Assembly: GCF_964355755.1 (NCBI RefSeq) | Contig: NC_092674.1 | Coordinates: forward strand, 4,159,001 to 4,223,000 | From: Antedon mediterranea | Taxonomy: Eukaryota; Echinodermata; Crinoidea; Comatulida; Antedonidae | Reading direction: 5' to 3' | Length of the DNA stretch: 64,000 nucleotides | In this document: positions 16,484 through 62,747 of the stretch, piece by piece | Layout of the letters: the number at the start of each line of letters is the position of its first letter | Numbering within the stretch: the stretch's first letter is position 1 | Position numbers and translations under genes: made by a program | Notes under the pieces: model-generated | What the model was told of the DNA's origin: nothing | Seen by the model: the letters and a program-made list of their open reading frames with translations, nothing else | The model's database searches: none

Positions 16484-17824
16484 GATGACTGGAAAGACGA
16501 AATTTGTTGTAGGCCTGTCGGTGATCGGTTTTCATCAAGGCAGCAGCTGTCATTTCCTGGTATATTAAAACAGGTTGAAAGAGTTTATTCGTGACAGGTA
16601 GGTAGCCTAACAAGCATCACTTACGATACAGTTGTTTACTACTCTCTGTACTCAGTTATAAAAATCTGCATTGCGCCCTCTGTCGTTATCCAGGGCATTA
16701 CAACTTTTAGGTTACATGCAAATTATAGGCCCACCAGTCTAATAATGGGCTAAATGGGGGATAAGTTTACTATTGGGTCGTGCGCGCGTTGTGCGTTTCT
16801 CCCAAAGTATAATATAAAATATTGCTATTTAGCAACGACAGTGGTTATGATAGAGTCAATGACATTGTTATGCATTTACAAAGTGAGACTTAAAAAAAAA
16901 ATAGGAGCGCTTATTGAGCCTGTGTTTTATAATCCGCCTCTGATTCGTGTTTTCCCAGCGCACCTAAGGTATTCAATCTAACCATGATTAGTTAAGATCT
17001 AGGCATATTTGTAGCATTGAGGGGGGCTAACAAATATTTCCAAAGTATTCCACTTATTAGTTAATTATTGACAAAACTAAAGAATGCTTTACAGGACATT
17101 ATACGGTATGGCATAGCTGCAGTTAAAGTTCACCATCCACGTACGTCAGGATTAGAGTGATCCGATCCGGTGGCCAGACAAAAATCCGAACTACGCTACT
17201 GTTTTTACGTGCTACGTTTCAATATGACGTCCACATACGTAATTTTCCTCCGTCACACTTCCGTCCTCCGTCACAACACGACGTATACGCAATGCGAGGT
17301 TGTTAACGCAACGCAACGCAATGACGTAAGCGCAACGCAAGCGAGTTGACCAATCACATGCGACTGTTCGAATAATCTATCGCTTGTGATTGGTCGAATG
17401 ACACTTGCCCCTATGTTGTTTTGTTGTGTCCAAGTGGGAACCACGCATTACATGTGGTGCGGTGACGTCCTTGTGTTTTGCATCTGAGTGGGACGAACGC
17501 CCCTCGAAAAGATCACCATACAATCTCTCTTTGATTATTAACATTTACAAAAATGTGTTTTTTTTATTTGAGGAAATCATGAAATCTTAAATAAAAAACA
17601 CATAGTAAAAAAAATACCAATGTTATAAAATTAAGCCCATGGGCTAATCAAGAGCTTACACTGTCGTATTTTGATCCGGGAACCAACAGGCAGGAAATAG
17701 AAAACAATTGTAATCTTCGGGAAGCAGATCATCACTGTAGAAGAAGGCGTATTGTTATTCAATCAAAGCAGAGGCTACTAGATCAATTGTTTTTACGTCG
17801 CTGCTGCAGGGTGCCTCTTGCAAT
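16484..17824. other. Divergent promoter region of PPM1L and the receptor
   Basis: The two genes start 1.34 kb apart in opposite directions. Only a diverged MITE-3 with CCAAT-type boxes (TGACCAATCACATGCG, GTGATTGGTCGAATG) was noted; no TATA box was fixed. Confidence 0.4.
17215..17485. mobile_element. MITE-3 copy 1, diverged
   Basis: Contains the family core: repeated ACGCAACGCAA, GACCAATCACATGCGACTG, TCGCTTGTGATTGGTCGAAT, and the end GTGGGAACCACGC. Lies in the presumed promoter region between PPM1L and the receptor. Confidence 0.7.
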
Positions 17825-17873
17825 ATGTCCTGGGATCTTATATTAATCCTAGGCCTATATTTACTTTCGAAAG
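17825..17873 (+). CDS. Receptor exon 1: signal peptide
   Basis: The exon encodes [16 protein letters not shown], a short hydrophobic leader, and ends in phase 1 at a GTAAGA donor. The next in-phase exon lies 4.26 kb away (22132) and begins the mature protein at [10 protein letters not shown]. Confidence 0.8.
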
Positions 17874-20800: not shown

Positions 20801-23800
20801 GATGATTTTAGACTGTACAGTACATGTATGCGTGAGTCTCAATAATTACGTAATATGGCACTCAGAGACAGACATAGGCTTACAAATGTTTCAATAGTTT
20901 TATATCGATCGAGTGGCCATAATGTGATCGATAATTGACTTGACTGATTGGGGAAATCAAATTTGTTGATTCTAAAATTTTCGATCAATTTAGAATCCAT
21001 GAATCGCAAGCAGTTTGAAGGAAGCCGATGGGACTCTACTGACTCTTGTATTCTGACCTACTTTCTTTTTATCTATAAGCGCGCTTAATTTATCATAATT
21101 TAGTTATTCCAAATGCGAAAATGAAAATGATGGTATTTAGTGATATAGATAGCCTTTCCTTGACGATTTACTAATTTCTTTAATGTTCATGTCTATTTAA
21201 AGTTAAACGCGCGAGTTAAAAAAATGATGAAATCGTACAGTTTGTACGCGCACGTTTGCTAATTTGTACGCGCGCGTGTAAGCACTAGTGAAATTATGTA
21301 CACGCGCGTTCAAACATTGATGAAAATCATACATATACAATTTTAAATCATCCAACTTGTACGCGCGCTTCGACTTTACAGTTTTAAATACATTCCAAAT
21401 GTATATTAAAACATATTTTTTATGAAGTTAATGAAAGAACTTGTAATATTTATCCTTGGCTGTAAGATCTTGAACTCCGGAAACAAAACTTGCTGCGAAA
21501 CGGACGTGAACTATCCAATGACATAATCAATTCTCCCATTATGCCTTCTGGTCTTCAAATCTGTGGTTAAAAAATATAATATAATTTTCTAAATTGCTGT
21601 TTTATTATTATCGTTATAAGGCCTCAGTACCGATATAGGGTATAGTGGAGATAACATAACCCCTATTAAAAAGTACCCTTAACAGGGATTGCGGATTAAA
21701 CATGTCCCCTTGAGTCGCTTTACATGCAGCAAAGTGCAATAACGGATATGTCTCTGAAATTTCCCCCAAAGAAGGGGTGCTATTGTATGTTTTCCTCTCT
21801 CCACCCAGGTGTATATGGGTACCCGGTTAGATCAAGACACAACTTTGCGCTGATTACTAGCTGTATTATGGGAGTATGTTTCCATACGTGTTTGATCCAA
21901 AAAAATGACTGGGGTAATAATTTTCAGCGCTTAGAGGTTTCAAAACATTAGGCGCTATATAAATCCTGGATATCATTACCATTATTCTCAATAAGATATT
22001 TGAATTATGTTTCAATCATATTATACACCACTAAATATAGAACACTCTACAAAGCATACGATCACGATCATTTGTTGGTTGCGCTTTTTCAAATAATACG
22101 TTTGTAATAATGTTTTGCCCTTAATTCTTAGCTACTTGCGAAGAAGAACCATGGCCTCGACTGGTGTGGACTGAACTCAGACTGAAAGACAGCACTGCTA
22201 AATTACAAAGCTTACCGGCTGATCCTAACGATTACATTTCATCTAGTTCTATATCAACACGATACTACTATACTAACAAACCAGCGCATTGGATAGCTGT
22301 TACCAATGACTTTGAAGAACGAACCGTCTTCTGGAGTGATAGTGGACAAAAACGGATTATGAAAGGCGGCCTTGGCGATGCTGCTACAGCATCGTCCATC
22401 TACCAGGGCACTTCGTCTTCGGTTGAAGGAATCGCAGTTGACTGGCTAGCGAAGACTCTGTACTGGGTAGATGAAACCTACAATTGGATTGTTGTTACAG
22501 ATTATTATGCTAGTAATATAGCGATATTAATTGATACTGGATTGTCGAAGCCAAGAGGTATCGCAACTCATCCACATAAAGGGTAAGTATTAAAAAACCT
22601 ATAATTTAAAAAAAGTAGTATAAATAAAGATCTAACTGCGCGTGACCTTTTTAGCTCCCTCATTTTAACAAGTCGTTATTTAAAAAATACCATTGATACT
22701 TCGCGTTTATATTAATAAATATCTATAATTATATGTAATGATAATGATGATGTAAACTTTTTGTGCATACCGATAAAGTTTGTTATCAAATCAAAACTAG
22801 AGGGCGTTTGACAATTTACAAAGGGGAATCCCCTAATTTGCAGCAGCCCCACGTGTCGTACCCACATGCGATTGGTTAATCGAATCAGAACGTAACGTGG
22901 CGCGATGCATGAAGTTAATCTTGTGGAATAGGCTAGATTGTTTAGTTTTTTTGAATTGCGGATTTGATATAAAAGTTGTTTAATATATTTATTGCCTTGG
23001 CCTGCGGCTTGATTGATCCTTGCTCAGACATTATTATACTAGTAGCTAAAGCTTGCTTGAATTGGTTACAATATACTATACTAGGTAGGCCTAGCTAGCT
23101 AGGCCTAACCATGGAGTAAATTCTTTACTCCATGGCCTAACTAAGTACGAGGACTCCCTGCGAGAGGCCTACTAGGCCTCCTACACTACTTAGTAGTACT
23201 GTAGTAGTAGTAGTAGACTATATATGTAGTAGTAGTCAGGCATGGTTACAACGGCGGTGTCTAGCAGAGAGTGGGGATGGGGCTAGGCCCTCCCTACCAC
23301 TCTACTAGCTAGCTATATGCTTATCCTGCATTACACTTCTACACTTCTTCTAGTTAAATAATACTATTAGTAATATTCATACATTCTGAAAAGGTTGTTT
23401 ATCAATAATAAATACTAGGCCTAGGATACATACTGAAAAGGTTGTTTATCAATAATAATAATATAGGCCTAGCTAGGCTATATAATGTTTGTTCAATAAT
23501 TAATAAATGGAAATTAAAATGAATATACAGTACAGTACCCTCTAAAAATAAATAGTACAACATGTAAAATCAATATACCATGACATTTAAAAAGTACACT
23601 AATATTTTAATAATTAGGCAAACACTGACAGATGGAAATAATATTTAATTTCAATATATAGCTCTGAACTAAGAAAAAAAAAAGTTAAGTATATCTTTAT
23701 GAACATGATGTCATATCACTACCATATTAAGGCATATCACTACCAAATTAAAATTGTCAAATTAGTTTGATAGCTTAAAAAAGAGACTTTTTAACCCACC

Positions 23801-26800
23801 CCACCCTCCAAACTCTCCTCCATCCACTCCCGTCTCTCACCCACTCACCCGGCTAAGAAATCTAACAATCATACTATTATTAAGTGGGCCTATATATCAA
23901 AAAGTTTGTTCTCATACACATTTTGTTTTTATTTTACACAGTTACCTGTTTTGGACAGACTGGGGTTCAGGAGACCAGAAAGTTGAAAGGTCAACTTTAG
24001 CCGGTGATGATCGAGTTGTTTTAGTCGATGATGATCTCTTTTTTCCAAACGGTTTGACGATTGATTTTGCAACAGACCGGTAAGCTTGCAAGTTTTCAAT
24101 ATTTAAGGAATTTGTTTTAAAAACAATAGGCCTACAAGTTCTAAAGTTTTAGAATACAAAGCCAGTTTACACTCTAAGTTATTTTGCCAAGTAACGCACC
24201 TTCCTAAATGATTAAAATGACAGTGCAAAAGATATAGAATATTCATGTTAAGTTTAGCACTTCATTTTACAATATTTAGGCCCTCACTGCCCACCTAACC
24301 AGCGGCCCTATTTCAAAATCCATTATCGGTCATAATGACAGCTCACAAAATCTGTATTCTTAATTGTGGTTGCTCTTTTATATGAGTGTATTACAACTTA
24401 AAAGAATTTTGTTTCCAACAAGCATGTTAAGCCGATTTTCCACTAGGCGAATTTAGTCGCACGAATCAAAAGCGTCACCTTATACGCATAGAGAGGGGTT
24501 TGGAAGATGGAAAAATGAATATGGATGTGTATAGGGCTGGCACTTTCGATTCATGCAAACAAATTTGCCTAGTAGTAGGCTTCAGGTCTAACGTTCTTTC
24601 AGCCTAATTAACGGTTAACAGCAATCACCCAAGCATTTCTAATATTTCCTTTACAACAGGAATTCTGTCTATTTTGTGTTGGTACTTTAATAAAGAGTAA
24701 AAGAGCTTTAAACGGAAACAGTCAGATACAAAATACCCCCATGTGGTTGCAAATTGAGGAAACGCTTAAACATATTGTTGTTTGAGATTGCTTGGCTATA
24801 CACAGCTAACATACCAGCAGGCATTGTTTCTATGTTATCTAATACATTGCGTTATTGACTACATTCCTGTAAGCCTATACTGTACTACAAGATATAACAA
24901 ACAGTATGTATATACAGTATAACAAAATATCATAAGATTTTTTTATTGTCACACTTATGGTATGATACAAATTCACTAAAAACATAAGGCCAATTTAAAC
25001 AGATGAGCGGTAACACAAATATAGAATATTTGCGAACGGGGGGTTTACGCTCAAGATAGATACAGACTCTACGTGGGACAAGCTACGTGGTTTTTCACGT
25101 ACCGTTACCGCTCGTATGTGCAAATTGTCCATAACTTTCAACATTAATAATAAGACGCTTTTTCAAATTTTTTTCCAAAAAAATTTTTTTGTAGACTATA
25201 TTGGACAGATGTGAACGTTGCATTCAGTAAAATAAAAAGCACAGACCTGAACGGCAACAATCTCACAACAATTATTGAAATAGCTTCAAGTACTGCACAC
25301 TTCTTTGATCTTACAGTCTTTCAAGTGAGTATTAAGCTCTGTCTTGGCTTCAAATCCAAAGGTCTGGTTCAAGTCTTGTCATTCAGAATTTTTTCTAATG
25401 ACAATTTACAACTCCACTCCAAAGACTTGTAATAAGACTTTGTTTATGTAGAGTACCTTGTGTATGTTTGTCTTGTGAACAGGATTGCCACCTTTAAGAA
25501 GGATAGTGAATGAATTCGATTATGGTTATCCTTGGAAATTTGCCAAAATATAATATTTATAACAAAACAAAACTAATAGAACAATCCTACATCATTGTAA
25601 TCATCTTTTTGAGGGATTTAAGTTGGTTCATTTTATGAAGAAAGTTTTATAGTACAGTGTTTTTATGGAAGCAAACTTTTGGGATGATAGGCGGACCAAG
25701 TAATTGTTTAAAAATTTAGTCTACGCATAAAGTGTAATACACACCCTTCCGCTTATTTTAGGGACAGTGTTTGATTGATTCACTGTTCGTCTATTTTCCC
25801 CAAACAAAAGCGGACAATTATACAACCTGACCAATTTGTGGATTTCCAATATATATCGCTATTTAAAACATAACCCTGAAGGATATTTATTTTACATTTG
25901 CAGAATTACTTATTTGTTACTGACTGGCGGAATTATCTACGATGTGTCAATATAAAAGAGAAGTCTCACTACTTCGCCCTGAATCTTGGTTCTCGTCCGT
26001 ATGGAATCATGGTTTTTGGCAATGAAAACCAACCTAATGGAACATGTATGTGTATTTCAATTAATATTAGTAGTCATAGTCATAGTCATATATACTTTAT
26101 TGTCCATTTAAAAAACAGAAATGTGATTTGAAAACTGGCAAAATACAAAAATATAAAATACAATTTACAAAAACACACACAAAAAGTTAAGAGGCTAAAA
26201 ATTTTTAAAATTAGATAAAAATTATCGGTTACATTTTACCTTTGTACTCTGGAGTTATATAAGTGTATAGCATTAGGTACAAACGAGCACCTAAACCGTT
26301 TTGTTTGGTATTAAGTGCACGTAGTCTTATGCCAGAATTCATGAGAGCAAATTGTTTGTGAAGAGGATGTGTTTCATCATCAATGATACTTTTTACTTTT
26401 TTAGCATTATCATAGCATTATAGGTTTAAATGTATTTTTTATATTTACTCTTTAAATCAAATCTATAACATACTGTATGTATTAATTCTGTATTCTGATG
26501 AAATTATTTGCTTTTTGCGATGTAGAATGTAATTTAAACTGTTTTTTCTTTATTTGTGAACCCTTGCTTACTACTAAATACTGCATTGATTTAAGCCTAC
26601 TCCTTTTTAATTATTAATATACCTCTCTGTACAAATCACTTTTATTCGGCTTTTAAAGTCGTTGACGTAGACACTTAAGAACTGTCAACAAGTTGTTTAG
26701 ATTCAGGCCTTGTTAAAAAAATACTCACCCATACATTACTCTTTAAATGTACTGTATTCATTTTTAGCTCCTTGTGCCAGCAAGCCATGCAATCAAATTT

Positions 26801-38800: not shown

Positions 38801-41800
38801 GAAAGTGTCCTTTAATAAGGGTGTTCTCTGTTAATAGGGGTATCCAAAACTAGTGTATTTCCAGAATGCAATCCCCTGCATTGTTATAATAAGACCCTAC
38901 ATTTGTTCGAATTTTAGTAGGAGGACTTGAGAAACAAAACCTATTTAGTCTAAATTAATATTGATTGCTGCCAATTTGTAATTTTAGTTATAGTAATTTT
39001 AAAATGTGGACAATTTATTTAGAAATATCTTTTTACAGACCTCCAACTCCTGATATTCTTTTTCATTTCAGATCCAACTGCTCCAAAGCTGGGGCAGTGT
39101 CCAGACAATATCAATGTTGTTGCAAATCGCAATGAAACAACAGCTGAAGCATTATGGGTGATTCCAGACAGCTTTGATGAAAACGGTGAAAGGTTAAATG
39201 TCACATCTTCAAAGCCAAATGGAGAACGCCTCTCTGAAGGGAACCACACAATCGTTTTGTCTGCTACCGACTCCAAAGGCAAAAACTCATCTTGCCGCTT
39301 CATTGTTGAAGTAACAGGTAAGTAAAAACATTCTCCATTTTCCCGTGGTAAATATTGAGGGGGGAAAAACGAACACATTTTTAAAAAGATAAATTTAAAA
39401 GTAAATTGTGGCGATAATTTTCACAAACAAAATATTCATTAGGGAAAAAAAGTTATTATTACATATAGTATTCTCTAGATTTACCTCTGTTTTTGTGTAG
39501 AATATTATAGAAAGCCCAAGGCCACAAACAACATGAAAGTGTCCAACAATTCATAAATCTTTGTCTACACTATCAAATTTTATGTGACAAAAAAATGATG
39601 ACATGATGATGTCCTATCATATTTGGGCATATCACTACTATATTTAGGCATATCACTACCATATTTGGGCACATCACACTTTTTATTGTTCAAAACTAGT
39701 TTGATAGTGTAGATGGAGTTTAGATCATTTTACACAAACTAACTATATTATTGTAATTTCTTTGTAGTTCACAGGTGCCCAGAACATCCTCCGTTTGAAC
39801 ATGGCCTCATGATTGGTCAGTGTAACAATCATTATGGGACATCATGTCAGTTTGCCTGTGAGACCGGTTTCCTTCTAACAGGTTCCAGAATCAGGACTTG
39901 TGAACTCTTTGATGGAAATAACAACATATTTGATTGGACGGGAGACATGCCTGGATGTGGAGGTATTCTTTTTTTATTTCATACATTGCTATTTACATGA
40001 TAGGTAAACTATTTTATAATTTATCGTGCTTATAAACTAAGTCTCATTTGAGACTTAGGGAGTGGAGGTGAAAGAGTCATAAGCTACACCCCTTGCACTA
40101 GGTCAGGATTGAACCTTGGACCACCAAGCTACAGCTCCACTACAATATTGCTCATATATTAGAAAAATAAGTCACTCTTGTATTCTCCTTGAAATTGTAG
40201 ACTGGATTTGAATCTTATTTTTTATTTAGCGAATTTGTGTCCGATGTTCCCCTCCCCTGAAAATGGACTAATCCAAGGATGTGATGCAAGCCAACCACAA
40301 CCATACCAGACACAATGTCAGGTGCAATGCTCAGAGGGTTACAGACAGACATCTGGAGACAACCTACGAGTGTGTCTCGATAATGGCACCTGGGATGGAA
40401 TACCCTTAGACTGTCAAGGTACTGTACAGCTCTGTCTACACTATCAAACTAGATGGACAAAAAATTAACTAAATATGGTAGTGATATGCTTAAATATAGT
40501 AGTGATATGACATCATCATGTCCATATATGGACACATCATATTTTTTTTTCACTTAAAGTTTAATAGTGTAGACAGACCTTAAGATAATGTCATGGCATT
40601 TTGTGTTTCTAGATAGGCTTAAGAAATCCCTACATTACAGTTTACAAGAAATAACTTTATATTGTAAAATCTTTCCTGAAATTTTACTGTAGGTGTGGCT
40701 TGCCCAGGAGTTTCGATTGAAGGAGTTTCAGTATACCCGCCAAGTTGTTCAAATGGAGCAGTCTACCGGGATGAATGTCATTTTGGATGCAACCAAGGAT
40801 ATGCTTTGAGAGGTGCACTCTCACAATATTGCTCAGCAAGCGGCCAGTGGACCCAGAATGATAATGACACATTTTGTGAAGGTACAGTAAAGTGGTTGAG
40901 AAACTTTACAAGGATAATTGTTGTCATCATTTAGGTTCCTGGTTAAAGTGTTATTATTATTTAATAGTAGTGTCTTGTAGCTACTGGCGTAATGGCTATG
41001 AGTGCTCACTGGAGATTACCGATATTTACCAGCAAATCAAGGTGGACAGACTGGCTAGTACATAGGTGTTTTCAGTTATATGAGCATCTATCTATAGACA
41101 GACTGTATTAAAAATTATAAATTAGATATTAATAATTTTATACAAGTTCTTTTATAGTGCCAAATTCCAACAAATGGATCAGTGCTCATGGCACTGTGGA
41201 CTCAGATGTTACACTTTTCAACTACCTGCTTCTCCCCTAAGGGTCACCTCATGTCAGTGCAGCCACTTTAAGGCGCTCTCTCATCTGTCCAAAAACAAAT
41301 ATACGAATGTCCACTAATTAAAAACATGCAATTTTCCTTCTTTCAGATATAACACCTCCAGTTTTCACAGATTGTCCTGATGAATTGCCATTCCAGGCAG
41401 ATGAATGCCAGAGACAGGCTCTGGTAGACTTTTCAGACCCAAAGGCAGAAGATAATTCTGGCCAAGTTGTAGTATCAGCATTGACAATTTTGTTTGAAGG
41501 CCTACCCACTTATCTACCTGACGGTGAATTCAAGTTTAACTACATTGCTGAAGACGATGCAAGAAATATAGCAAGATGTTCATTTAAAGTTAAAGTTATT
41601 GGTAATATATACATATAAATAAATATATAAATCCAAAGGCAAATTACTGAATAAATGACAATGCTGTGGGTATCAGTGGCTGGATCTCAATGGAGATACA
41701 AATAAAATAAGCACTGAAAAAATGACAATGCTGTGGGTATCAGTGGCTGGATCTCAATGGAGATACAAAAAAAAATGAAAAGCTAATTCAAAATGATAAA

Positions 41801-44800
41801 GTAAACAATGTTTTGTAGACGGGAATATTTTATAGTCGCACATATGTTGCGAACTCCCATAATGGTCCTTTTGTGTCGTGGACATAAGTAATTGCGCTGT
41901 AATTGGCTGCTGGTGACACGATGGAACCCTTGATAAGGGAGAGAAGTGATGTTAAAAGGGTGTAACATCTAAGTCCACAGTGCTCTGATCTTCATGAAAT
42001 AGTGCTATATAAATGTCGCATTATATATTATATATTTCCTTCACTTGCATTAATGAAGGGCTAGTGTTGCCCGAAAGCTCTGCTAATTTTTCTGGCTGTT
42101 TTACTTTATCGTTTTGATTTAGCTTTTCACTTTTTTTTTGTATCTCTATTGAGAGCCACTGATACCCACAACATTGTCATTTTTTTCAGTTATTTGCCTT
42201 TGGATTTATTAAATATTTGTGTTACACTGCCATCAAATGGCGCTTATTCGAGGTTGACCTGTGCACAGAAGATGCACTGTGAGTTCTTTATAACTTTACA
42301 ATTACAATAGTTTGTTTTTTCATCTCCAATGTAATCCAATGTACAACCCAGCTAATCATTAAGAATGGAGTGGAGTTGTGGCTTGGTGGTTGTGATTCTT
42401 GGCTAACAATCCCAGGGTCCTGGGTTTAAGTCCTGTCATCCACTCTCAAAGACTTGTAATAAGACTTTGTTTATGTAGAACATTTTGTGTATATGTTTGA
42501 ACAGGATTGCCACCTTTAAGAAGAATAGTGATGAATTAATTATGGCCTAAATATATAAACAAAACAAAGAATAGTAACTTTGTGGCTAGGCTACATTCAT
42601 CAGTCACCCTGACCTGTGGTACTGTGGCTCACACTCTATTCTATCATCCTTCTTCACTCCACAGTGACCCAATGTCCAGATCTGCCAATCACCAACAGCT
42701 TAGACATCAACACCTCTTGTAACAATCTGTACGGCTCAATAGCTAAGTTCAGGTGTACAAGAGCGTACTCCACCCTAGAAGGACAGTCAAACGTAACGTG
42801 TCTCTCTACTGGGGAATGGAGTGATTCAACTCCACATTGTAACGGTAATACACATTTTCTGTTGTTAATTAATCTCTCATACATGATCTTAAGGCCAATT
42901 TACACAGATGAGCGGTTATGGTAATAATAATATAGAATCTGTTATCCCTTATGACCATTTACACAAAACGCGGAGTGGACGAGCGGTTGCTGCTCAGGAT
43001 AGGTAAAGATTCTACGTGGGACAAGCCACACAGCTTTCTGCTGTTACTGCTCGTATTTGTAAATTGGCCTTTAAGCCATATGAAATCAGAAGAAATTACA
43101 AGAGTTTGCAGTAAAACATTTTTAAAAAATGTACAGAAATATAAATATGAAATTTATAAAAATCAGTGAGATATAAGAAAAGTTACCTTTTATGATCACA
43201 ACCTAAGTATTGCTCACATTATCATTCAATTTTGATGTCTTTCTTTTACAGAGGTGATGTGTAATCCACTTCGTAATCAAGATTATGGTAAAGTAATGCC
43301 TTTTGTGTATCCATACTCATGCAGTGCACGACGTCACCCTGTAGGCAAACAATGTCACATTCGCTGCCCTTTTGGTTACCAGTCACGTGACGGGACAACG
43401 TCAGTCAGGTGTCTGCCAAATGGCCAATGGACTTCTCTTCCTGACAGTCTTTGTGTTGGTGAGTAATATAAGGTTGTTGGTTAAATTAAAAAGATTGGTT
43501 GTCAAATTAAAAAAAAAATTTTATTTTTAAATCGTTGCCATGACTACGATTCTTTTCAATCTTATTTTGGTGACCTACGACTCACTGTATTCATTGAATG
43601 TTCTAACGCTCTATCTACACTATCAAACTTTATTTGACAAAAAAATGTGATGTGCCCATGGACATGATGATGTCATATCACTACCTTATTTGGGCACATT
43701 ACACTTTTTTTGTCAACTAGTTTGATAGTGTAGACAGAAACTTTGGATTCAATGTGTGTGGTAAACAAATAAAACAAACAATCAAATGCTTTATTATTTC
43801 CACAAACAATATATCCTGCAACGGCGTAAGGTTTTACTCCATACAGTACACCGTTTTCAACCGCAAGGCATTGCCAATATTCCATATATTAATTGATTAA
43901 TTATTTTTCAGATATAACTCCTCCCAGATTCATCAGTTGTCCCTCTGCGATAACTAAATACCTTTCACCGAGAAAGTCAACCGTGAAGGTTACATGGAAT
44001 AAGCCAAGACCATTTGATACTTCAGGTAATTTAAGCTCTGAATTACAGGATGATGTATAGTTTGTTTGAGCAAGGCATGCTGAGCTCTGGAGATCAAAGT
44101 GGTTATCTGTGGCTGTGATACGATCAGTTCCACGCCGTGGAGAATATGTACATAGTACAGTACTGTTGGTATTTGTTGCAGCCAGACATAAGATCAAAGG
44201 ACTGTTACGGGTTCCTATCTTGGCAAGGCGAGCAGTCTTCTGTTGTTAGATTGCCTTGGTTTGAAGTACTGGTGTTTTTATTTCTCTTGACAATAACTTC
44301 ACGACCGTTATGCTGTGTTTATATTTTGAAATGAATTGAAATTAATTTCCACCTATATTGAGCTCTGTCTACACTGTCAAACTTTGTGTGACAAAAAATT
44401 GTCCGTGACCGTATATGGAAATCATGTCATATTGAGAATGTGCGCTACAGCTGATCTTTTAAATTATTTATTATTCCAGGTGTATTCAATCTAACTTCCC
44501 CTGATGTTGAGCAACCGTTACAACTTGGACCTGGTATAACACGGCTTAATTATGTTGCCACAGACGGTAGTGGAAATGAGGCTCATTGTATTTTTACCAT
44601 TACTGTAATAGGTAAGTATTTTGATAATTTTTGATATATGTTTTTTTTTATTCAATATTTCACTCAGAGGCTCCTCACAAGGCACAGCTTTAGTCTAGAG
44701 GAGCCTCTGCAACATTCAACAAATAAAAGCTTACCAACAGAAGGTGGAAATATATAACAACAAAATCTAAATAGTAAATCTTTATTATATGTTTCCATCA

Positions 44801-47800
44801 TTTAATATGCTCATCTAGACTTTAATGATGAGAGTAATGATCTAATTCTTTGTTATATAATTCAATAGATGCTCAAAAACCGACAGTTAAAGGCTGCCCT
44901 GAAGTTCAAGCTTTGAAGTCCGACACGCTTCCTATAGAGTTCAAGTGGCATCATTCGCCAGTGTTTGCCGATAACGTGAACGTGACGGACATTACGTACA
45001 GTAGGCAGAAAGGTGATCTTGTATACGAATGGGGCGAGTACAGCGTTGATATTACCGCTACCGATGACAACAACAACGCTGCTACTTGTACAATGCTAGT
45101 TGAAGCTGTTCCAAGTAAGAATCTTTTTTGTTATTAAGTCTCAAGTCCATCTTTCAAACATAAAGAAGCCTACGATTTACCACCACTATACACGATCTTT
45201 CTACCTTTATTCTATTGCCAACACCGTATAGTATTGTGAAGGCATGTGGCGCAGTGTGTTGGACGTTGGATTACTGATGGTGAGATCGTGGTTCGAATCC
45301 AGTTCTCGCTGCATTGCTTGTATCCACTTTACTTGCATTTACCTCTCTCCACCCATGTGTATAAATGAGTACCCAGTTAGATCAAGACACAACTTTGCAC
45401 TGATTATTAGCTCCAAAACATTACTGGCTTTGAGCATGATTATTCATGAAAAGCACCTAGAGGGGTCAGTGATCCATTAGGCGCTATATAAATATTGTTT
45501 ATTTTATTATTATTAAAAGGGCACTATAGAAATGTGGTATTAATAAAAAATAGTATGCACCCGTATTAAGACTATTCTTATTTCTAGTGTACACTTATGT
45601 CCTTGCAGTCGTTGCCAACATAGTTAAATTTTCTTTTATTATTAGCTGATCCTTGTAAAACTTTGGATGCTCCTAAGAATGGACAGATGAACTGTAAGGC
45701 ACACCACTGCACAGCGACCTGTAGGGACGGATACGTATTCCTCGATGGTCAAACTAGACACAAGTATAACTGTAATACGGTGCTAGGCCGTTGGAACCAT
45801 GGCAATCCAACCGATCCACAACCATTCGCAGCCAGCTGTTCAAAAGGTTTGTCAACAATGTCTCAGTAATATCCTAAAGCTCTGTCTATCAAACTAGTTT
45901 AACAAAAAAAGTGTGATGTACCCAAATATGGTAGTGATGTGCTTAAATATGGTAGTGATATGACATCATCATGTCCATATATGGGCACATCACTTTTTTG
46001 TCACATAAAGTTTGATAGTGTAGACAGAGCTTTAGCCTAGACTGCTGCCTCAACTAACTACTACTGCAGGGGTGGATCCAGGGGGTTGGTTCCCCTTTGA
46101 CAGCTAAAATGAAATTATGAACTACTCTTTGATATCTGTTTTTGACAGACTATTAATATAATACTATTAACGAAGGTGATATTATATATATTTTTTTTTA
46201 AATACTTTTTATTATTTTTTTTCCAGTTATACCTGGCAATGAGATTCGGTTGGAGCGCCAGGATGCATTGGTTTTTTCCCATCCTACTCCGATTGATTGC
46301 CGTAACACCTCTGCCAGTCGACAAACACAGATTCAAAATCTGTTAGACTCAAGCAAATTTATAGTAAGTTATAATTAATATGATACGGTAATGATACCTT
46401 TGTTTTTATTAAGGGCGTGTGGCGAATTATGTTGGACATACAACTACTAATCGTGAGATCGAGGTTCGAATCCAACTCTTGACGCATTGCTTGAATCCTT
46501 AGGCAAGATACTTTACTTACGTTTGCCTCTCTCCACCCAGGTGTATAGATGGGAACCCGGTTTGATCAAGACACAACTTTGCGCTGATTACTAGCTGCAT
46601 TATGGGAGTATGTTTCCATACATGTTTTATCCCAAAAAAAATGACTGGGGTAATAATGTTCAGCGCTTAGAGGTTTCACAACATTAGGTGCTATATAAAT
46701 CCAGGATATTATTATTATTATTAAAATGAAAATTATTCTTACACTAATAATTTTTTCAATTATCAGACATTTTGTCAAAGTCATGAAGATATTCAGTGTT
46801 CGTTTAAAGACATTTCGTCACTATGTGCGAACAACCGTGTCAAACGAACAACATTGGCAATACTCTCAAATGAAGTTGGGGTGATGTTTACCTATGTGGC
46901 CACAAGGTACTGTATTGGTGTCAGTTTTGTTGTTGTTTAAAGGTCTGTCTACACTATCAAACTTTATGTGACAAAAAAATGTGATATGCCCATATATGGA
47001 CATGATGATGTCATTTTTGTAAGATACCCTCTCCTATATAATGTAAGATATTATTTTTTTAATGCCCTCATTTTTCTTATTTATTTATTTATTTATTTTT
47101 TTATTTTAGTTCCAATGCAGATCTCTTGGACCAGATGTTAAGAGCCATCAACATTTCCATCAATGACCTTTGGCCTGAAAGTAAAGCTTATTTGGATATC
47201 AACGGAGACAGGGTTACTTTAGCTCCCTCCATATCAGAAAAGGGAACAGTTAGTTCAGTATGTCCGAAAGGTCAGAGTGCGGCCAATAAGAAGTGTGGTA
47301 AGTAGTTTATACTGTACTTTATTTGTAATAACACTTTTCAATATATTTACGTTATTATTGTAATGCTTTTAATATACGCTGTCAATACTATCAAACTAGA
47401 TAGACAACAAAAGTGTGATTTGCCCATATATGGACATGATGATGTCATATCACTACCATATTTAAGGATATCACTACCATATTTGGGCACATCTTTTGTA
47501 AGACTAGTTTGATAGTGCAGACAGAGCTTTAGTACTATAAAAAGTGCATTCACTGGCACTGTAAGATATTTTAACGGGAAAAAGAGGAGAAAGTTAGTCA
47601 AACTTTCTGAAGATTTGAAACTTGAAACTTTAGATTATGTCTTTATTGTTAATATCGTTTTATACTGTTCTTTCAGTGCAATGTTCACCAGGTACATTTT
47701 ATGATATACACTTTGAGAGGTGTCTCCCTTGCCAAGTGGGAACCTATCAGGATAAGGAAGGTCAACTAGCCTGTGTACCATGTCCAAGAGGGACAAGCAC

Positions 47801-50427
47801 TCCAGGGTCAAGTGCATTTAGCCTAGACAGTTGTACACGTAAGAATTGTGTTATTTAAGAATATTATGCAGTTGTCAATTGTATGACCCACTATACAACC
47901 ATGAAGAGGTACGTCATTTGTCCGATGTGCATCATACTTTATGAATACCATATTATGATGAATACCCCTGCATAAAAAAATTGACTTACCTTTAGGTGAC
48001 CATGACGCACCCATTTTGAAGAACAATGGCGCGTTGTGACCATGTTGTTCATGATATGGTGGGTGGTAAAGTGATGGACATTGACACACCATTGTTCATT
48101 GATGTGATGTATCATCTAGGTTTTTTGACGCACCCCAGTGTCAATAATTTTTATTTAATTTTTTTTTTATTCAATCGAAACCAACAGCGATAATTACCGC
48201 CACTAACAGGTTTGATACAAACAAAGCCAGGAGAGTTTAAAGCACCTTGATTGGTCCTGACATTGATCAAGGGCTTCTCTCGTCCAGTGCCCACCTTGAC
48301 CAGAGGTCTGAGGCAGATACTAGATGCAGGGGCTGCCATAAGAGTCAGCAGTGCTGATTTCAAATGCCTAACGGGACCCCATCTCCGTATACAGCACCCG
48401 CTATTCCCAGATGGTCTCCCATCCAAGCTCTAACCAGGCCCAACGTTGCTTAACTGACGAGAACCGGTGTTTCAACGTGGTAAAGCCGTATATAAGATGA
48501 CAACACATTATTTGTAAATGACGCATCCATAATGCACCTCTCCCAGGAGTCGTATAGTGGGTCATACAATTGACAAGTGCATTACTGTTGCTGTATAAAT
48601 AAGATATACTTTAAACAAAGTGTCCCATTAATAGGGGTTGTCTGTAGTGTTAATGCATACAGTATATTTCCCTGTGTTTGTTTTACAGAATAGTGTCCCC
48701 TTAATAGGTGTTTCCCTACTTAATACTTTGTCTCAATGTTTTGATAGCTATGTATACCAATATATTGTCTTTTTTGTTAGGTTCATGTAGACCTGGTAAC
48801 TATTCCTATCTTGGTATAGAACCATGTAACAAGTGTGCCGTTGGCACTTACCAGACGCGGTACAACAGCAGGTTCTGCACACGATGTCCGAAAGGTGTTG
48901 AAACACACGATGAAGGATCATCATCAATAAGAGAATGCATAGGTACAGTCATTATACATATAAGATATACATATAAAGCTCTGTCCACACTATCAAACTA
49001 GTTCGACAAGTGTGATGTGCCCAAATATGGTAGTGATAATGACTTCATCATGTCCATATATGGGCACATCACAAAAGTTTAATAATGTAGACAGTGTACA
49101 GTATTTCTTGATTATAATTTTCTTTGTAGTAAAATTGTTCTCTTTTTAGGTTATGAAACATATTCAACAGCAAGCCCAAGTGAAATTCCAACAGGCTCTA
49201 TCAAACCAACAAAGGGCCAGATGACAACACAGGCCATGACTACAGCATCCAGCAATGATAGCGAAGTAGCAACCTTAAAAGACAGTCGAGAATTTAGCAT
49301 CATAATAGTCGTAGTATGTGTAGCAGTTGCCTTCTTTGTTATTGTTGTTATTGCTATATGTGTTGTAAAAAGAAGAAGGTAATTAATTTCATTTTTTTTT
49401 GTAAACCAATGTGACCTAGCCAATTCTTGGTTCTACAATGTTTACAGTATCATAGGCAGATTCTGTGATACAGTGTCACATATGCATCACAAGTGATGTC
49501 TGTATCATTAGTCTAAACTAACCCTAACTTTAACATATGTAACACTGTATATTTTAAGTTATTTCTATTTTTAAATTATTTCTATTTTAAGTTATTTATA
49601 TTATAAGTTATGTATATTTTAAGTTATTTATATTTTAAGTTATGTATATTTTAAGTTATTTCTATTTTTAAATTATTTCTATTTTAAGTTATTTATATTA
49701 TAAGTTATGTATATTTTAAATTATTTATATTTTAAGTTATTTATATTTTAAGTTATGTATATTTTAAATTATTTATATTTTAAGTTATTTATATTTTACA
49801 GGAAAAAAGGAACGTTTAAACCCCACCGCCTAAATGATGACTCACAGCCTGTGAGCAACATGTTCCAGGAGTTAGGAGAAATGCAAACTCTCTGCTTTGA
49901 GAATCAAACATACAGTGCTGATAATGGTAAGCGTGACAGGTTTAGGCCTAGAGTTAAGCTCTGTCTACACTATCAAACTAGTGTGACAAAAAAGTGTGAT
50001 GTGCCCAACTATGGTAGTGGTATGACATCATCATGTCCATATATGAGCACATCACATTTTGTTGTCACAAAATGTGATAGTGTAGACAGAGCTTTAGAGA
50101 TTTAGTACAGTAGAACGAGTTGAAATATATGTTTTAATACTCTGGCTAACCTCTATTCAGGGGCCATCAATGGTTCTACTATAGATAGAAAGATTAACAG
50201 TACATATACAGCATTACAGATACAAAGCTCTTTAACTAATAATAATTAGATAATAAAACAATACAATAATAATACAATTTAGTAATAATAATTTGTTTTA
50301 ATTAGTAGATAAAAACATTGAAGATGATTTTGGCTATTCGATGTTGGAAAACGACAACACATCAATTGGAAAGCCGCTTACGTCATTCAAAGTAGATGAA
50401 AATGATGATCTTCTCGCCACTTTGTAA
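17825..50427 (+). CDS. Large type I receptor: 3 YWTD propellers + EGF, CCP/HYR array, GCC2/3, TM; 43 exons, 2,574 aa
   Basis: Forty-three exons were traced by splice sites and phase; the summed length, 7,725 bases, is a multiple of three with no internal stop. Order: signal peptide (exon 1, 17825-17873), three LDLR-class-B propellers each closed by an EGF exon (exons 2-17), Sushi/HYR array (exons 18-35), an unassigned cysteine-containing region (36-38), two GCC2/GCC3 modules (39-40), TM (41) and an 86-aa tail (41-43). Propellers are typical of LRP-family endocytic receptors; CCP, HYR and GCC2/3 together are typical of SVEP1-like adhesion proteins and complement-type proteins. No LDLR class A repeat is seen, which separates it from LRP5/6. 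An endocytic or adhesion receptor for large extracellular ligands is inferred, not shown. Alternatives: two adjacent genes fused by my exon chaining, though phases and absence of intervening stop/UTR argue for one. Confidence 0.85.
18951..19471. repeat. Tandem duplication, about 260 bp x2
   Basis: ATTCCAAATTATTTGGTTTA begins both units (about 18952 and 19215); units differ by a few substitutions and an 8-base indel. Receptor intron 1. Confidence 0.85.
20365..20705. repeat. Minisatellite, about 42-50-bp unit with palindrome ATGAATATTCAT
   Basis: Eight units built on CAATATATTCATGAATATTC ATAAGCTTTGCAACTGACAACGT. Receptor intron 1. Confidence 0.88.
21788..21990 (+). mobile_element. tRNA-derived SINE (family A), head missing
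   Basis: CTCTCTCCACCCAGGTGTAT … ATCAAGACACAACTTTGCGC … TTAGGCGCTATATAAATCCT, as in the full copies; receptor intron 1. Confidence 0.75.
22132..26045 (+). CDS. Receptor exons 2-5: first YWTD propeller
   Basis: Exons 22132-22582, 23942-24079, 25195-25324, 25904-26045 (residues about 17-303). YWTD-type blades appear as VFWSDSG, LYWVDE, LFWTDWG, LYWTDV and LFVTDW, with typical LSKPRGIA and [10 protein letters not shown] loop motifs. The exon borders fall between blades as in LRP genes. Confidence 0.88.
22583..23941. other. Receptor intron 2, no exon seen
   Basis: Rich in CTAG/AGGCCT palindromes and TAGTAG runs (23075-23240), a CCATGGAGTAAA hairpin at about 23111-23140, and MITE-1 copy 7. Confidence 0.5.
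23660..23789 (+). mobile_element. MITE-1 copy 7, degraded
   Basis: GATGTCATATCACTACCATA core and a right end AGTTTGATAGC remain, in receptor intron 2. Confidence 0.6.
24430..24590. mobile_element. Short inverted-repeat element in receptor intron 3
   Basis: CCACTAGGCGAATTTAGTCG plus CACGAATC at the left pairs with GATTCATGCAAACAAATTTG plus CCTAGTAG at the right. Single copy in this window. Confidence 0.55.
24987..25130. mobile_element. MITE-2 copy 2
   Basis: GGCCAATTTAAACAGATGAG … ACCGCTCGTATGTGCAAATT; receptor intron 3, about 30 bases shorter in the centre. Confidence 0.75.
25408..25530 (+). mobile_element. SINE family B, body only
   Basis: CCAAAGACTTGTAATAAGAC … AACAGGATTGCCACCTTTAA matches the 42373 copy; receptor intron 4. 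Confidence 0.6.
26046..27453. other. Receptor introns 5-6, no further exon seen
   Basis: Except for exon 6, this is AT-rich intron. 26066-26410 has a (TAGTCA)n start and looks like an old dispersed repeat; its class could not be set. Confidence 0.4.
26768..26881 (+). CDS. Receptor exon 6: EGF-like module 1
   Basis: The exon encodes six cysteines in EGF spacing ([12 protein letters not shown]…[16 protein letters not shown]), the module that normally packs under an LRP propeller. Phase 1 at both ends. Confidence 0.85.
27454..30333 (+). CDS. Receptor exons 7-11: second YWTD propeller
   Basis: Exons 27454-27723, 28274-28427, 29185-29325, 29941-30058, 30183-30333 (residues about 342-619). Blades read [30 protein letters not shown] and YLLFTEWNE. 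An unusual cysteine-containing insert ([12 protein letters not shown]…PCFLQ) lies at the start, before the first blade. The tryptophan is lost in several blades, so this propeller is the most divergent of the first two. Confidence 0.85.
28098..28252 (+). mobile_element. MITE-1 copy 8
   Basis: Near-complete element 21 bases upstream of receptor exon 8, so its right end lies close to that exon's branch-point/acceptor region. Confidence 0.85.
29391..29551 (+). mobile_element. MITE-1 copy 9
   Basis: Complete, 66 bases after receptor exon 9. Flanked by TA on the left and TA one base beyond the right end. Confidence 0.85.
29608..29755 (+). mobile_element. MITE-1 copy 10: internal repeat expanded to six units
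   Basis: Ends are missing. The interior unit CACTACCATATTTGGGCACA is repeated in tandem six times, against two in most copies. Confidence 0.8.
30594..30731 (+). CDS. Receptor exon 12: EGF-like module 2
   Basis: [16 protein letters not shown]…[19 protein letters not shown] shows canonical LRP-type EGF spacing. Phase 1-1 exon. Confidence 0.88.
31519..33161 (+). CDS. Receptor exons 13-16: third YWTD propeller
   Basis: Exons 31519-31764, 32205-32367, 32499-32626, 32880-33161 (residues about 666-938). Blades are ILLADTY, VYWTDVD, LFWTDST, IYWTDWG, LYWCDGK and [17 protein letters not shown] and [10 protein letters not shown] are typical connecting loops. It is the most LRP-like of the three propellers. 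Confidence 0.9.
31850..31997 (+). mobile_element. MITE-1 copy 11
   Basis: Complete copy in receptor intron 13, left end AAGCTCTATCTGCACTATCA, right end TAGTGTAGACAGAGC. Confidence 0.85.
33262..34080. repeat. 19-bp minisatellite, about 40 units
   Basis: Unit GTGTGCTTCCGATATCCAG with frequent C/T and deletion variants, ending 24 bases before receptor exon 17. All six frames stay open over parts of it, which creates false ORFs. Confidence 0.93.
34105..34236 (+). CDS. Receptor exon 17: EGF-like module 3
   Basis: [18 protein letters not shown]…[18 protein letters not shown] has EGF cysteine spacing and closes the propeller section before the Sushi array. Confidence 0.85.
34375..34545. repeat. 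About 21-24-bp tandem repeat
   Basis: ACCTCTCACCATAGTAACAC recurs about seven times in receptor intron 17. Confidence 0.85.
34630..35877 (+). CDS. Receptor exons 18-20: CCP/Sushi modules 1-3
   Basis: Exons 34630-34797, 35119-35298, 35683-35877, each one phase 1-1 module (residues about 983-1163). Each starts with a Cys-Pro pair ([30 protein letters not shown]) and holds the later Cys-X-W pattern (GEWN, GWEG, GTWS). The extra cysteine pair in each resembles the six-cysteine CCP variant of SVEP1-like proteins. Confidence 0.85.
34817..34978 (-). mobile_element. MITE-1 copy 12
   Basis: Complete copy starting 19 bases after receptor exon 18; two ATGGTAGTG/ATTGGAGTG units. Confidence 0.85.
35443..35583. 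mobile_element. MITE-3 copy 2
   Basis: AAGCTTGGTTCCCACTATAG … CTAGTGGGACCACGCTTAA with two CCAAT-type boxes around TGACCAATCACAAGCGACTG; receptor intron 19. Confidence 0.8.
36373..36618 (+). CDS. Receptor exon 21: HYR module 1
   Basis: The exon reads [14 protein letters not shown]…[12 protein letters not shown]…[19 protein letters not shown], the hyalin-repeat signature with two cysteines and the conserved A-x-D-x-x-x-N-x-A-x-C end. One 246-base phase 1-1 exon. Confidence 0.88.
36662..36792 (-). mobile_element. MITE-1 copy 13, internal deletion
   Basis: Both ends present; the CCATATATGGGC segment is deleted. In receptor intron 21. Confidence 0.82.
37065..38640 (+). CDS. Receptor exons 22-24: CCP/Sushi modules 4-6
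   Basis: Exons 37065-37256, 37735-37917, 38446-38640 (residues about 1246-1435). Starts are [26 protein letters not shown] and [14 protein letters not shown]; all carry the G-x-W near the last cysteine. Same three-module block as before HYR 1. Confidence 0.85.
37338..37630 (-). mobile_element. tRNA-derived SINE (family A)
   Basis: Minus strand: TGTGGCGCAGTGTGTTGGAC (A-box-like) and GTGGTTCAAATCCAACTCTC (B-box-like) head, then the same body; 3' end differs from the other copies. Receptor intron 22. Confidence 0.78.
37965..38185. repeat. Irregular GGTGTTT repeat
   Basis: GTGTTTAGAAGAAGGTGTTT and variants recur in receptor intron 23. Confidence 0.75.
38690..38707. repeat. Poly-C run
   Basis: An uninterrupted cytosine homopolymer of about 17 bases in receptor intron 24; length is likely unstable and error-prone. 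Confidence 0.8.
39072..39317 (+). CDS. Receptor exon 25: HYR module 2
   Basis: [21 protein letters not shown]…[19 protein letters not shown] is a clear hyalin repeat, exactly the same exon length (246) as HYR 1 and HYR 5. Confidence 0.88.
39556..39720 (+). mobile_element. MITE-1 copy 14
   Basis: Complete; ends 47 bases before receptor exon 26. Three CATATTTGGGCA-type units. Confidence 0.83.
39768..40881 (+). CDS. Receptor exons 26-28: CCP/Sushi modules 7-9
   Basis: Exons 39768-39962, 40230-40418, 40693-40881 (residues about 1518-1708). Starts are [28 protein letters not shown] and [13 protein letters not shown]. Third copy of the three-CCP block. Confidence 0.85.
40020..40145 (-). mobile_element. 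SINE family B-like head
   Basis: Minus strand TGTAGCTTGGTGGTCCAAGG, then TTCAATCCTGACCTAGTGCA; similar heads at 7793-7870 (+) and about 36000-36125 (-). Confidence 0.5.
40427..40581 (-). mobile_element. MITE-1 copy 15
   Basis: Starts 8 bases after receptor exon 27, immediately behind the splice donor GTACTGTACA. Confidence 0.84.
41347..41601 (+). CDS. Receptor exon 29: HYR module 3
   Basis: [16 protein letters not shown]…[21 protein letters not shown] is a hyalin repeat. It has one extra cysteine (ADECQRQ), leaving an odd count that may pair with a neighbouring module. Confidence 0.85.
41623..42215. mobile_element. Foldback element of about 590 bp in receptor intron 29
   Basis: AAATCCAAAGGCAAATTACT at the left pairs with TTATTTGCCTTTGGATTTAT at the right, and long inner arms (ATGACAATGCTGTGGGTATC… / …GATACCCACAACATTGTCAT) extend the fold. 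The left arm is duplicated in tandem (63-bp unit). A relative of the right arm lies at 8560-8720. Confidence 0.7.
42373..42550 (+). mobile_element. tRNA-headed SINE (family B)
   Basis: GTGGCTTGGTGGTTGTGATT and GGGTTTAAGTCCTGTCATCC give tRNA-like A and B boxes; body AAAGACTTGTAATAAGACTT recurs at 25418. Receptor intron 29. Confidence 0.65.
42665..43458 (+). CDS. Receptor exons 30-31: CCP/Sushi modules 10-11
   Basis: Exons 42665-42844 and 43252-43458 (residues about 1794-1922). Starts [13 protein letters not shown] and [14 protein letters not shown]. Only two CCPs here, so a third module seen in the other blocks is missing or was never gained. Confidence 0.83.
42891..43075. mobile_element. MITE-2 copy 3
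   Basis: GGCCAATTTACACAGATGAG … CTGCTCGTATTTGTAAATTG; receptor intron 30. Confidence 0.78.
43608..43738 (+). mobile_element. MITE-1 copy 16
   Basis: Complete short form with a single ACTACCTTATTTGGGC unit, receptor intron 31. Confidence 0.83.
43912..44611 (+). CDS. Receptor exons 32-33: HYR module 4, split by an intron
   Basis: Exons 43912-44025 and 44480-44611 together make [14 protein letters not shown]…[13 protein letters not shown] | [13 protein letters not shown]…[18 protein letters not shown]. Their sum is again 246 bases; the internal intron is unique among the HYR units and holds a repeat at its start. Confidence 0.87.
44050..44275. repeat. MITE family 4, copy 2
   Basis: This copy sits in the intron that splits HYR 4. 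GCTGAGCTCTGGAGATCAAA at the left and CTGTTGTTAGATTGCCTTGG at the right match copy 1 in the same orientation. Confidence 0.75.
44361..44436 (+). mobile_element. MITE-1 copy 17, 5' half
   Basis: AGCTCTGTCTACACTGTCAA, then ACTTTGTGTGACAAAA; 3' half absent. In the intron that splits HYR 4. Confidence 0.7.
44869..45114 (+). CDS. Receptor exon 34: HYR module 5
   Basis: [20 protein letters not shown]…[20 protein letters not shown] is a 246-base phase 1-1 hyalin repeat directly after HYR 4. Confidence 0.87.
45241..45520 (+). mobile_element. tRNA-derived SINE (family A)
   Basis: Head TGTGGCGCAGTGTGTTGGAC and GTGGTTCGAATCCAGTTCTC, body and GGCGCTATATAAATATTG tail; receptor intron 34. Confidence 0.82.
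45646..45846 (+). CDS. Receptor exon 35: CCP-like module 12
   Basis: [17 protein letters not shown]…[23 protein letters not shown]…[18 protein letters not shown] is the atypical CCP that precedes the GCC2/3 section in SVEP1-like proteins. tRNA-derived SINEs of the same orientation flank it in both introns. Confidence 0.75.
45876..46033 (-). mobile_element. MITE-1 copy 18
   Basis: Complete; six bases of the left end deleted (CTGTCTATCAAACT). Receptor intron 35. Confidence 0.85.
46227..47297 (+). CDS. Receptor exons 36-38: unassigned cysteine-containing region with furin-like site
   Basis: Exons 46227-46363, 46767-46906, 47110-47297 (residues about 2154-2308). I do not recognise a named domain. 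It has cysteines at DCRN, TFCQS, IQCSF and SLCAN, a basic R-V-K-R at residues 2223-2226, and a helical stretch [17 protein letters not shown] before SVCPKGQ…KKC leads into the GCC2/3 modules. Phases 0 and 2 here break the phase 1-1 rule of the array, so it likely has another origin. A SEA-like or SVEP1-linker fold is possible. Confidence 0.75.
46413..46715 (+). mobile_element. tRNA-derived SINE (family A)
   Basis: Head GCGTGTGGCGAATTATGTTG, GAGGTTCGAATCCAACTCTT; ends in an ATT microsatellite. Receptor intron 36. Confidence 0.82.
46940..47018 (+). mobile_element. MITE-1 copy 19, 5' half
   Basis: Left end to GGACATGATGATGTCAT, then lost; receptor intron 37. Confidence 0.75.
47377..47530 (+). 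mobile_element. MITE-1 copy 20
   Basis: Left end altered (GCTGTCAATACTATCAAACT), right end intact; receptor intron 38. Confidence 0.83.
47677..48942 (+). CDS. Receptor exons 39-40: two GCC2/GCC3 (ephrin-receptor-like) modules
   Basis: Exons 47677-47838 and 48781-48942, both 162 bases. They read CSPGTFYD…[27 protein letters not shown] and [37 protein letters not shown], the conserved GTYQ…C..CP pattern. The intron between them carries a TIR element with a 5S-derived SINE. Confidence 0.88.
47872..48576. mobile_element. 705-bp element with 25-bp perfect TIRs
   Basis: Bases 47872-47896 are the exact reverse complement of 48552-48576 (core TGTATGACCCACTATAC). The interior holds no transposase frame but carries a 5S-derived SINE. 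It lies in the intron between the two GCC2/3 exons of the receptor. Confidence 0.85.
48157..48490 (-). mobile_element. 5S-rRNA-derived SINE, nested
   Basis: On the minus strand the head (48490 to about 48376) reads like 5S rRNA: GGCCTGGTTAGAGCTTGGAT, GGGAGACCATCTGGGAATAG and CGGGTGCTGTA keep the box A-internal element-box C promoter area, with several bases deleted in the 5' third. About 200 bases of unrelated body follow and end in an A-rich tail at 48157-48172. This is the plan of SINE3-type elements. Confidence 0.75.
48976..49094 (-). mobile_element. MITE-1 copy 21
   Basis: Short form with one ATGGTAGTG unit, 33 bases after receptor exon 40. Confidence 0.82.
49150..50427 (+). CDS. Receptor exons 41-43: Thr/Ser stalk, transmembrane helix, cytoplasmic tail
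   Basis: Exons 49150-49378, 49802-49926, 50306-50427. A Thr/Ser-rich stalk is followed by a single helix ([21 protein letters not shown], residues about 2466-2488) and a basic stop-transfer KRRRKK. The tail holds FENQTY (2525-2530, fitting FxNxxY), YSML (2545-2548, YxxΦ) and ENDDLL (2566-2571, acidic dileucine). No kinase, TIR or death domain is present. Stop TAA at 50425-50427. Confidence 0.9.
49410..49540. mobile_element. MITE-5 copy 3, partial
   Basis: AGCCAATTCTTGGTTCTACA … AGTATCATAGGCAGATTCTG … GTGATACAGTGTCACATATG; inverted relative to copy 1, receptor intron 41. Confidence 0.5.
49550..49798. repeat. AT minisatellite abutting the exon 42 acceptor
   Basis: Units TTATTTATATTTTAAG / TTATGTATATTTTAAG repeat about 15 times, and the last unit supplies the sequence just before the ACAG acceptor. 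Confidence 0.88.
49955..50095 (-). mobile_element. MITE-1 copy 22
   Basis: Complete and well preserved, 28 bases after receptor exon 42. TA flanks both ends (GTTA-AGCTCTG … CAGAGCTT-TA), the best case for a TA target duplication. Confidence 0.87.
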
Positions 50428-62455: not shown

Positions 62456-62747
62456 AGCGAATATATTCCTGAAATTCAGTTGTATATTCATATATGCGTA
62501 GTTGGCAGGTTAATACTCGTATTGTGATTAGCAATGATACTTCAACGGAATTCCGAAATAGACATACACGAGCCATGAGCGAATAATTTATGAAAATCAG
62601 TATTAGGCCACTCCTCTTCACTTCTGGTGATACAATCCATTAGTACATATTGCGTACGAAAGTTCTAGGCAGATTTGTCGAACATGAGGATGGTGTGTTG
62701 TTAGGATTAGTTGTGTCTCGTAGGCCGATGAAACTGACGAAAATACT

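Follow-up and report, generated by a model that had tools for sequence, protein, structure and literature searches.

The window, the whole stretch of 64,000 nucleotides of Antedon mediterranea DNA that was analysed, carries on its plus strand, at 17825-50427, a receptor gene that we call A and whose coordinates below are window positions. To chain its exons, candidates were set by module, splice site and phase on that strand. The resulting model has 41 exons, 32 of which start in phase 1, all separated by GT-AG introns; joined, they encode a protein of 2,477 aa in one frame without a stop. A single open frame had been proposed in an earlier note and stands, while the 2,574 aa given there is replaced by the length from splice-site chaining. 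The coding sequence ends in a TAA (50425-50427) with AATAAA directly after it. Exon 1, which sits 4.3 kb upstream of exon 2, is the least certain exon and not proven, and the donor of exon 40 is likewise putative. A minisatellite at 33261-34074, with about 43 copies of a 19-bp unit in the intron ahead of EGF 3, yields false exons because it is open in several frames; candidate exons there, and others in a repeat within HYR 4, were judged spurious and dropped from the model. The remaining elements of the window, recognised by eye, are listed with the modules of A and its paralogues in Table 1.

Table 1. Modules of gene A, loci sharing its propellers, and other elements of the window
Feature	Position	Strand	Content or evidence
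Retroelement remnant	3158-7415	minus	Reverse-transcriptase/RNase H-like and recombinase-like open frames (by eye)
PP2C (PPM1L-like) phosphatase gene exons	14618-16531	minus	Upstream of A (by eye)
Exon 1, signal peptide	17825-17873	+	ATG, hydrophobic core, donor AAG/gtaaga, phase fits exon 2
Exons 2-5, propeller 1	22132-22582, 23942-24079, 25195-25324, 25904-26045	+	LDLB 2e-13 to 9e-17
Exon 6, EGF 1	26768-26881	+	Module model
Exons 7-11, propeller 2	27454-27723, 28274-28427, 29185-29325, 29941-30058, 30183-30333	+	Module models; PDB LRP4
Exon 12, EGF 2	30594-30731	+	Pfam FXa_inhibition/EGF_LRP2
Exons 13-16, propeller 3	31519-31764, 32205-32367, 32499-32626, 32880-33161	+	Best Pfam Ldl_recept_b stretch
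Exon 17, EGF 3	34105-34236	+	Module model; paralogues in same phase
Intron at propeller/CCP join	34237-34629	+	Contains 24-bp minisatellite
Exons 18-20, CCP 1-3	34630-35877	+	CCP 4e-16 to 2e-20
Exon 21, HYR 1	36373-36618	+	Module model
Exons 22-24, CCP 4-6	37065-38640	+	Module model
Exon 25, HYR 2	39072-39317	+	Module model
Exons 26-28, CCP 7-9	39768-40881	+	Module model
Exon 29, HYR 3	41347-41601	+	Module model
Exons 30-31, CCP 10-11	42665-43458	+	Module model
Exons 32-33, HYR 4	43912-44025, 44480-44611	+	44025/44480 splice gives complete HYR; best Pfam HYR stretch
Exon 34, HYR 5	44869-45114	+	Module model
Exon 35, CCP 12	45646-45846	+	Module model
Exon 36, spacer	47121-47297	+	Cys pattern similar to SVEP1-like gene, C5:23171.6k
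Exons 37-38, GCC2/GCC3 (Ephrin_rec_like) 1-2	47677-48942	+	Pfam; genome search E=1.1e-12, 1.9e-9
Exon 39, Ser/Thr-rich stalk and TM helix	49150-49378	+	Hydropathy peak 3.66
Exons 40-41, cytoplasmic tail	49802-49926, 50309-50427	+	FENQTY, YSML, ENDDLL; TAA then AATAAA
HECT-domain (G2E3-like) gene-like exons	54817-59916	plus	By eye
Rhodopsin-type GPCR-like open frame	62724-63689	plus	Single exon (by eye)
Locus B	C7:21.28-21.297M	minus	3x propeller-EGF, CCP, three further CCP, Ig, trypsin domain
Locus C (L007)	C8:22578795-22587400		3x propeller-EGF, Ig-like exon, protease-like domain, no CCP
Locus C2 (L008, L018-L020)	C8:22597541-22622140		3x propeller-EGF, at least 3 CCP, protease-like domain
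Locus D	C5:7.622-7.6326M	minus	3x propeller-EGF, CCP, Kunitz, TM, tail with repeated PYYLTV
Locus L011	C5:1069501-1079500		Two propellers, EGF, TM, tail with 51-residue repeat (PKLPEKKPKEKRPNPPRSIHEYAGV...)

Modules, membrane anchor and tail of A

The domain search that the earlier note had proposed, run with Pfam on the joined protein, recovered Ldl_recept_b (1.9e-63), HYR (1e-55), Sushi (2e-51) and Ephrin_rec_like (GCC2/3; 1.6e-19), together with FXa_inhibition/EGF (1.9e-13). Models built from A's own exons counted three propellers (17 blade matches), three EGF, twelve CCP, five HYR (one of them split) and two GCC2 modules, all on one strand, in line with the three propellers with EGF, about 12 CCP, five HYR and two GCC2/3 reported before. 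LDLR class A (LDLR-A) repeats, already noted as not seen in that first reading, were found neither as Ldl_recept_a by Pfam on the protein nor, in a regular-expression scan of both strands of the window, as an LDLa-like motif; nor did the protein give a Pfam match to VWA or pentraxin. Among solved structures, propeller 1 had LRP6 as its top single-propeller match (154 bits), propeller 2 matched LRP4 (194 bits) and propeller 3 matched LRP6 and LRP4 (207 and 204 bits), while the CCPs were nearest complement receptors and factor H.

Hydropathy gives a signal-like N-terminal peak and one TM (mean 3.66) followed by tail exons 40-41, the arrangement of TM and tail described earlier, and A is predicted to be a single-TM type I protein. 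The tail of 83 aa contains FENQTY (FxNxxY), YSML (YxxPhi) and ENDDLL ([DE]xxxLL). All three motif classes occurred jointly in 0.064% of 100,000 shuffles of the tail residues, and singly in 1.1% (FxNxxY), 42% (YxxPhi) and 15% (dileucine); chance thus readily produces YxxPhi and dileucine motifs in a tail of this kind, but not FxNxxY. The tail lacks NPxY, FENQTY being an NxxY without the proline, and it holds no PPPSPxS motif.

Relatives of the two halves of A

The CCP-HYR-GCC2 portion had been compared with SVEP1-like and complement-like proteins, a likeness that a colinear SVEP1-like gene at C5:23.163-23.178M sharpens to the SVEP1/polydom core. This gene reads CCPx3-HYRx2-CCP-spacer-GCC2x3 and the 3' end of A follows the same order, CCPx2-HYR-HYR-CCP-spacer-GCC2x2, with a similar cysteine pattern where the two spacers end (FCTNGSILQKRTKCVNC in the SVEP1-like gene); EGF exons and one LamG/pentraxin-like exon were further recognised by eye in the SVEP1-like gene. 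The match is one of order and not of every intron, because a different HYR is split: HYR 4 in A, by an intron holding a repeat insertion, and the second HYR in the SVEP1-like gene. Published cnidarian polydom-like proteins include some that retain only the Sushi-HYR-TKE core, with other domains added at either end (PMC12549020). Judged by sequence, A is a chimera of a polydom core and an LRP head.

The three-propeller-EGF block was found at four diverged loci besides A (B, C, C2 and D), with a CCP exon next in three of the four; a full gene model exists for A alone, B to D having been read by order, strand and phase. Exons 2-18 of A recur in B in the same order at 29-53% identity (CCP1 at 8e-6), and for most of them the top match is the colinear exon. 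The trypsin domain of B keeps its His, Asp and Ser (TAAHC, NADIAMIKL, GDSGG) and an RVVGG activation site. The protease-like domains of C and C2 read GEDGG where GDSGG is expected and have lost the catalytic Ser, and they are likely pseudoproteases, alongside the intact protease of B in the family. The Ig-like exon of C is a weak match, under the Pfam cut-offs.

On the contig that carries B, we also observed a calcitonin-type peptide precursor exon (L014, C7:21171245). Its context, KR-GCDVFGGCAQLKVGRELAIDTLQKGSGGMFGSSGP-G-RKRR with 35 residues, fits the description of AmCT of A. mediterranea, a 35-residue peptide with two N-terminal cysteines and the C-terminus GGMFGSSGP-amide (PMC9793003); the nine-residue pattern with its amidation Gly matched the genome once, and a control pattern did not match. 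The many HYR candidates of the genome also fit an echinoderm; a COX1 search returned no mitochondrial contig.

When exon 2, which opens propeller 1, served as the query and all 109 candidates were scored, 15 loci reached at least 62 bits; from 43 bits downwards came other LRP-type exons. About nine of the 15 form a tandem gene cluster at C5:1.01-1.17M, whose two-propeller form is known from L011, the sole copy read in detail. A locus at C1:39584001-39604000 (L009-L010) was considered as a relative and set aside as a different type, with two LDLb and about 28 HYR modules and no EGF or CCP seen; a further copy of this LDLb-HYR array lies near C1:39.66-39.67M.

We then compared single propellers of A, B, C and D in a tree with two LRP2 propellers, the LRP2 rows being taken from PDB match alignments. 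Propellers grouped by position (propeller 2 at 100%, propeller 3 at 99%, propeller 1 apart from the rest at 99%), arguing that the three-propeller order predates the split of A, B, C and D; same-position propellers of these loci differ at 26-68% of sites. On this grouping, the three-propeller head is an inherited block, and it is shared within a family of about 15 loci. It recurs in this genome in front of proteases and other ends, which suggests a reusable recognition module undescribed in the literature searched; the protease paralogues B, C and C2 likewise point to a unit for recognition whose outputs have been exchanged.

More tentatively, and with somewhat more doubt than confidence, we propose a crinoid recognition system of immune or clotting type, parallel to MASP/complement, in which the ancestral three-propeller head was fixed as a block and phase-1 exons join it to effector ends—a polydom-like endocytic receptor, serine proteases both active and inactive, a Kunitz receptor and a two-propeller array. 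Interest in A would rise if the head family proved to be such a system. A in any case shows LRP propellers at work beyond the canonical receptors, in a portable head for ligand binding that has no LDLR-A repeats. Because one head is paired with ends for uptake, proteolysis and signalling, what it binds can be asked directly, and its family lets the origin of new receptors by exon shuffling be asked in a poorly studied echinoderm class.

Function of A and competing readings

We consider it probable that A is one gene for a large type I endocytic recognition receptor of about 2,480 aa, and infer that it sits at the cell surface in that orientation. Ligand would be bound by the head, with its three YWTD propellers and EGF modules, at the faces of the propellers, as happens in LRP5/6 and LRP4; the CCP/HYR rod with its GCC2 stalk, akin to the polydom (SVEP1) core, would keep the head off the membrane, and the rod may contribute further ligands. 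The short tail might recruit clathrin adaptors via FxNxxY, YxxPhi and [DE]xxxLL, so that bound material—self debris, microbes or matrix—could be internalised. Through shuffling of phase-1 exons, the head would also have come to precede proteases, a Kunitz domain and further tails, giving one type of recognition head different outputs. Most cargo of LDLR, LRP1 and LRP2 binds LDLR-A repeats; A is without them, and its cargo endocytosis would therefore differ in mechanism from theirs. A scavenger role is not readable from the head alone, because other ends in the family (proteases, a Pro-rich tail) are not endocytic.

Alternatively, A could be an adhesion or matrix receptor whose propellers and HYR/CCP modules bind extracellular or skeletal matrix, endocytosis being minor. 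Lrp-like proteins, possible relatives, in echinoderm skeletal proteomes (PMC5460417), the great expansion of HYR in the genome (1,417 candidates at first look) and the fact that polydom is itself a matrix protein (PMC12549020) agree with such a role; however, the predicted TM and the tail bearing sorting motifs lead us to regard it as rather unlikely. A signalling co-receptor of the LRP5/6 type, for Wnt or similar, is improbable: LRP6 and LRP4 are nearest to A's propellers among solved structures and the propeller comes first, as in LRP5/6, but A has three propellers, no LDLR-A repeats and no PPPSPxS in its tail.

The endocytic receptor reading takes A as a single gene, whereas two neighbours—one for a secreted protein of three propellers with EGF, the other for a polydom-like receptor with CCP, HYR and GCC2—might have been wrongly chained. 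The two halves do resemble two different known families, and exon 17, if left unspliced, meets a stop a few codons past its donor, close to an ATTAAA. Yet the intron between exons 17 and 18 measures 393 bp, is mostly a 24-bp minisatellite and offers no usable signal-peptide exon or in-frame start ahead of CCP1; the phases of the two exons match (1-1), phase 1 being common to all EGF3-to-next-module junctions that were read; and in B, C2 and D three propellers, EGF and CCP stand in the same place. Because of this shared order and the want of a usable signal-peptide exon, a gene boundary at exons 17-18, which would have refuted the single propeller-CCP/HYR/GCC2 gene of the earlier note, is very unlikely, and the propeller-to-CCP join is real at the sequence level. 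That A is a decaying gene or an assembly artefact is scarcely credible, for although several introns hold repeat insertions, including that within HYR 4, its 2,477 codons are stop-free, its splice sites intact, every module readable and a terminal polyadenylation signal present.

Comparison with known systems

In the open-access literature, we found no published protein with YWTD/Ldl_recept_b, Sushi and HYR in the order of A. The LDLR/LRP core family shares with A the EGF-flanked YWTD propellers (by Pfam and PDB) and a single TM (predicted in A), whereas A is without LDLR-A ligand-binding repeats and cytoplasmic NPxY. LRP5/6 and LRP4 are closer: these are type I membrane proteins, as predicted for A, with a propeller-EGF chain at or near the N-terminus, and LRP6 and LRP4 are the nearest solved structures to A's single propellers. 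In contrast to them, A has three propeller-EGF units instead of four and no LDLR-A repeats, with CCP next where LRP5/6 have three such repeats, and it differs from both LRP5/6 and LRP4 in its CCP/HYR/GCC2 rod, in lacking PPPSPxS and in an FxNxxY without the NPxY proline.

With SVEP1/polydom and the cnidarian polydom-like proteins, A shares the order CCP-HYR-HYR-CCP-spacer-GCC2. Unlike SVEP1/polydom, it has no VWA, pentraxin or EGF array but three additional CCPx3-HYR blocks, carries LRP propellers in front and ends in a predicted TM and tail instead of being secreted.

In CCP serine proteases such as MASP/C1r and horseshoe-crab factor C, the recognition part consists of CUB or lectin modules. 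Paralogue B resembles them in its succession of recognition modules, CCPs and a trypsin domain last, with three LRP propellers and Ig replacing the CUB or lectin modules.

Lrp-like proteins whose domain order varies are also known from the skeletal proteomes of other echinoderms, namely sea stars, sea urchins and brittle stars (PMC5460417). Those of Patiria and Strongylocentrotus carry LRP-type domains that differ in how many there are and how they are arranged, and they are annotated as LRP5-like; the text of that source states no CCP/HYR/GCC2 fusion. They are the best lead to possible relatives of the A family.
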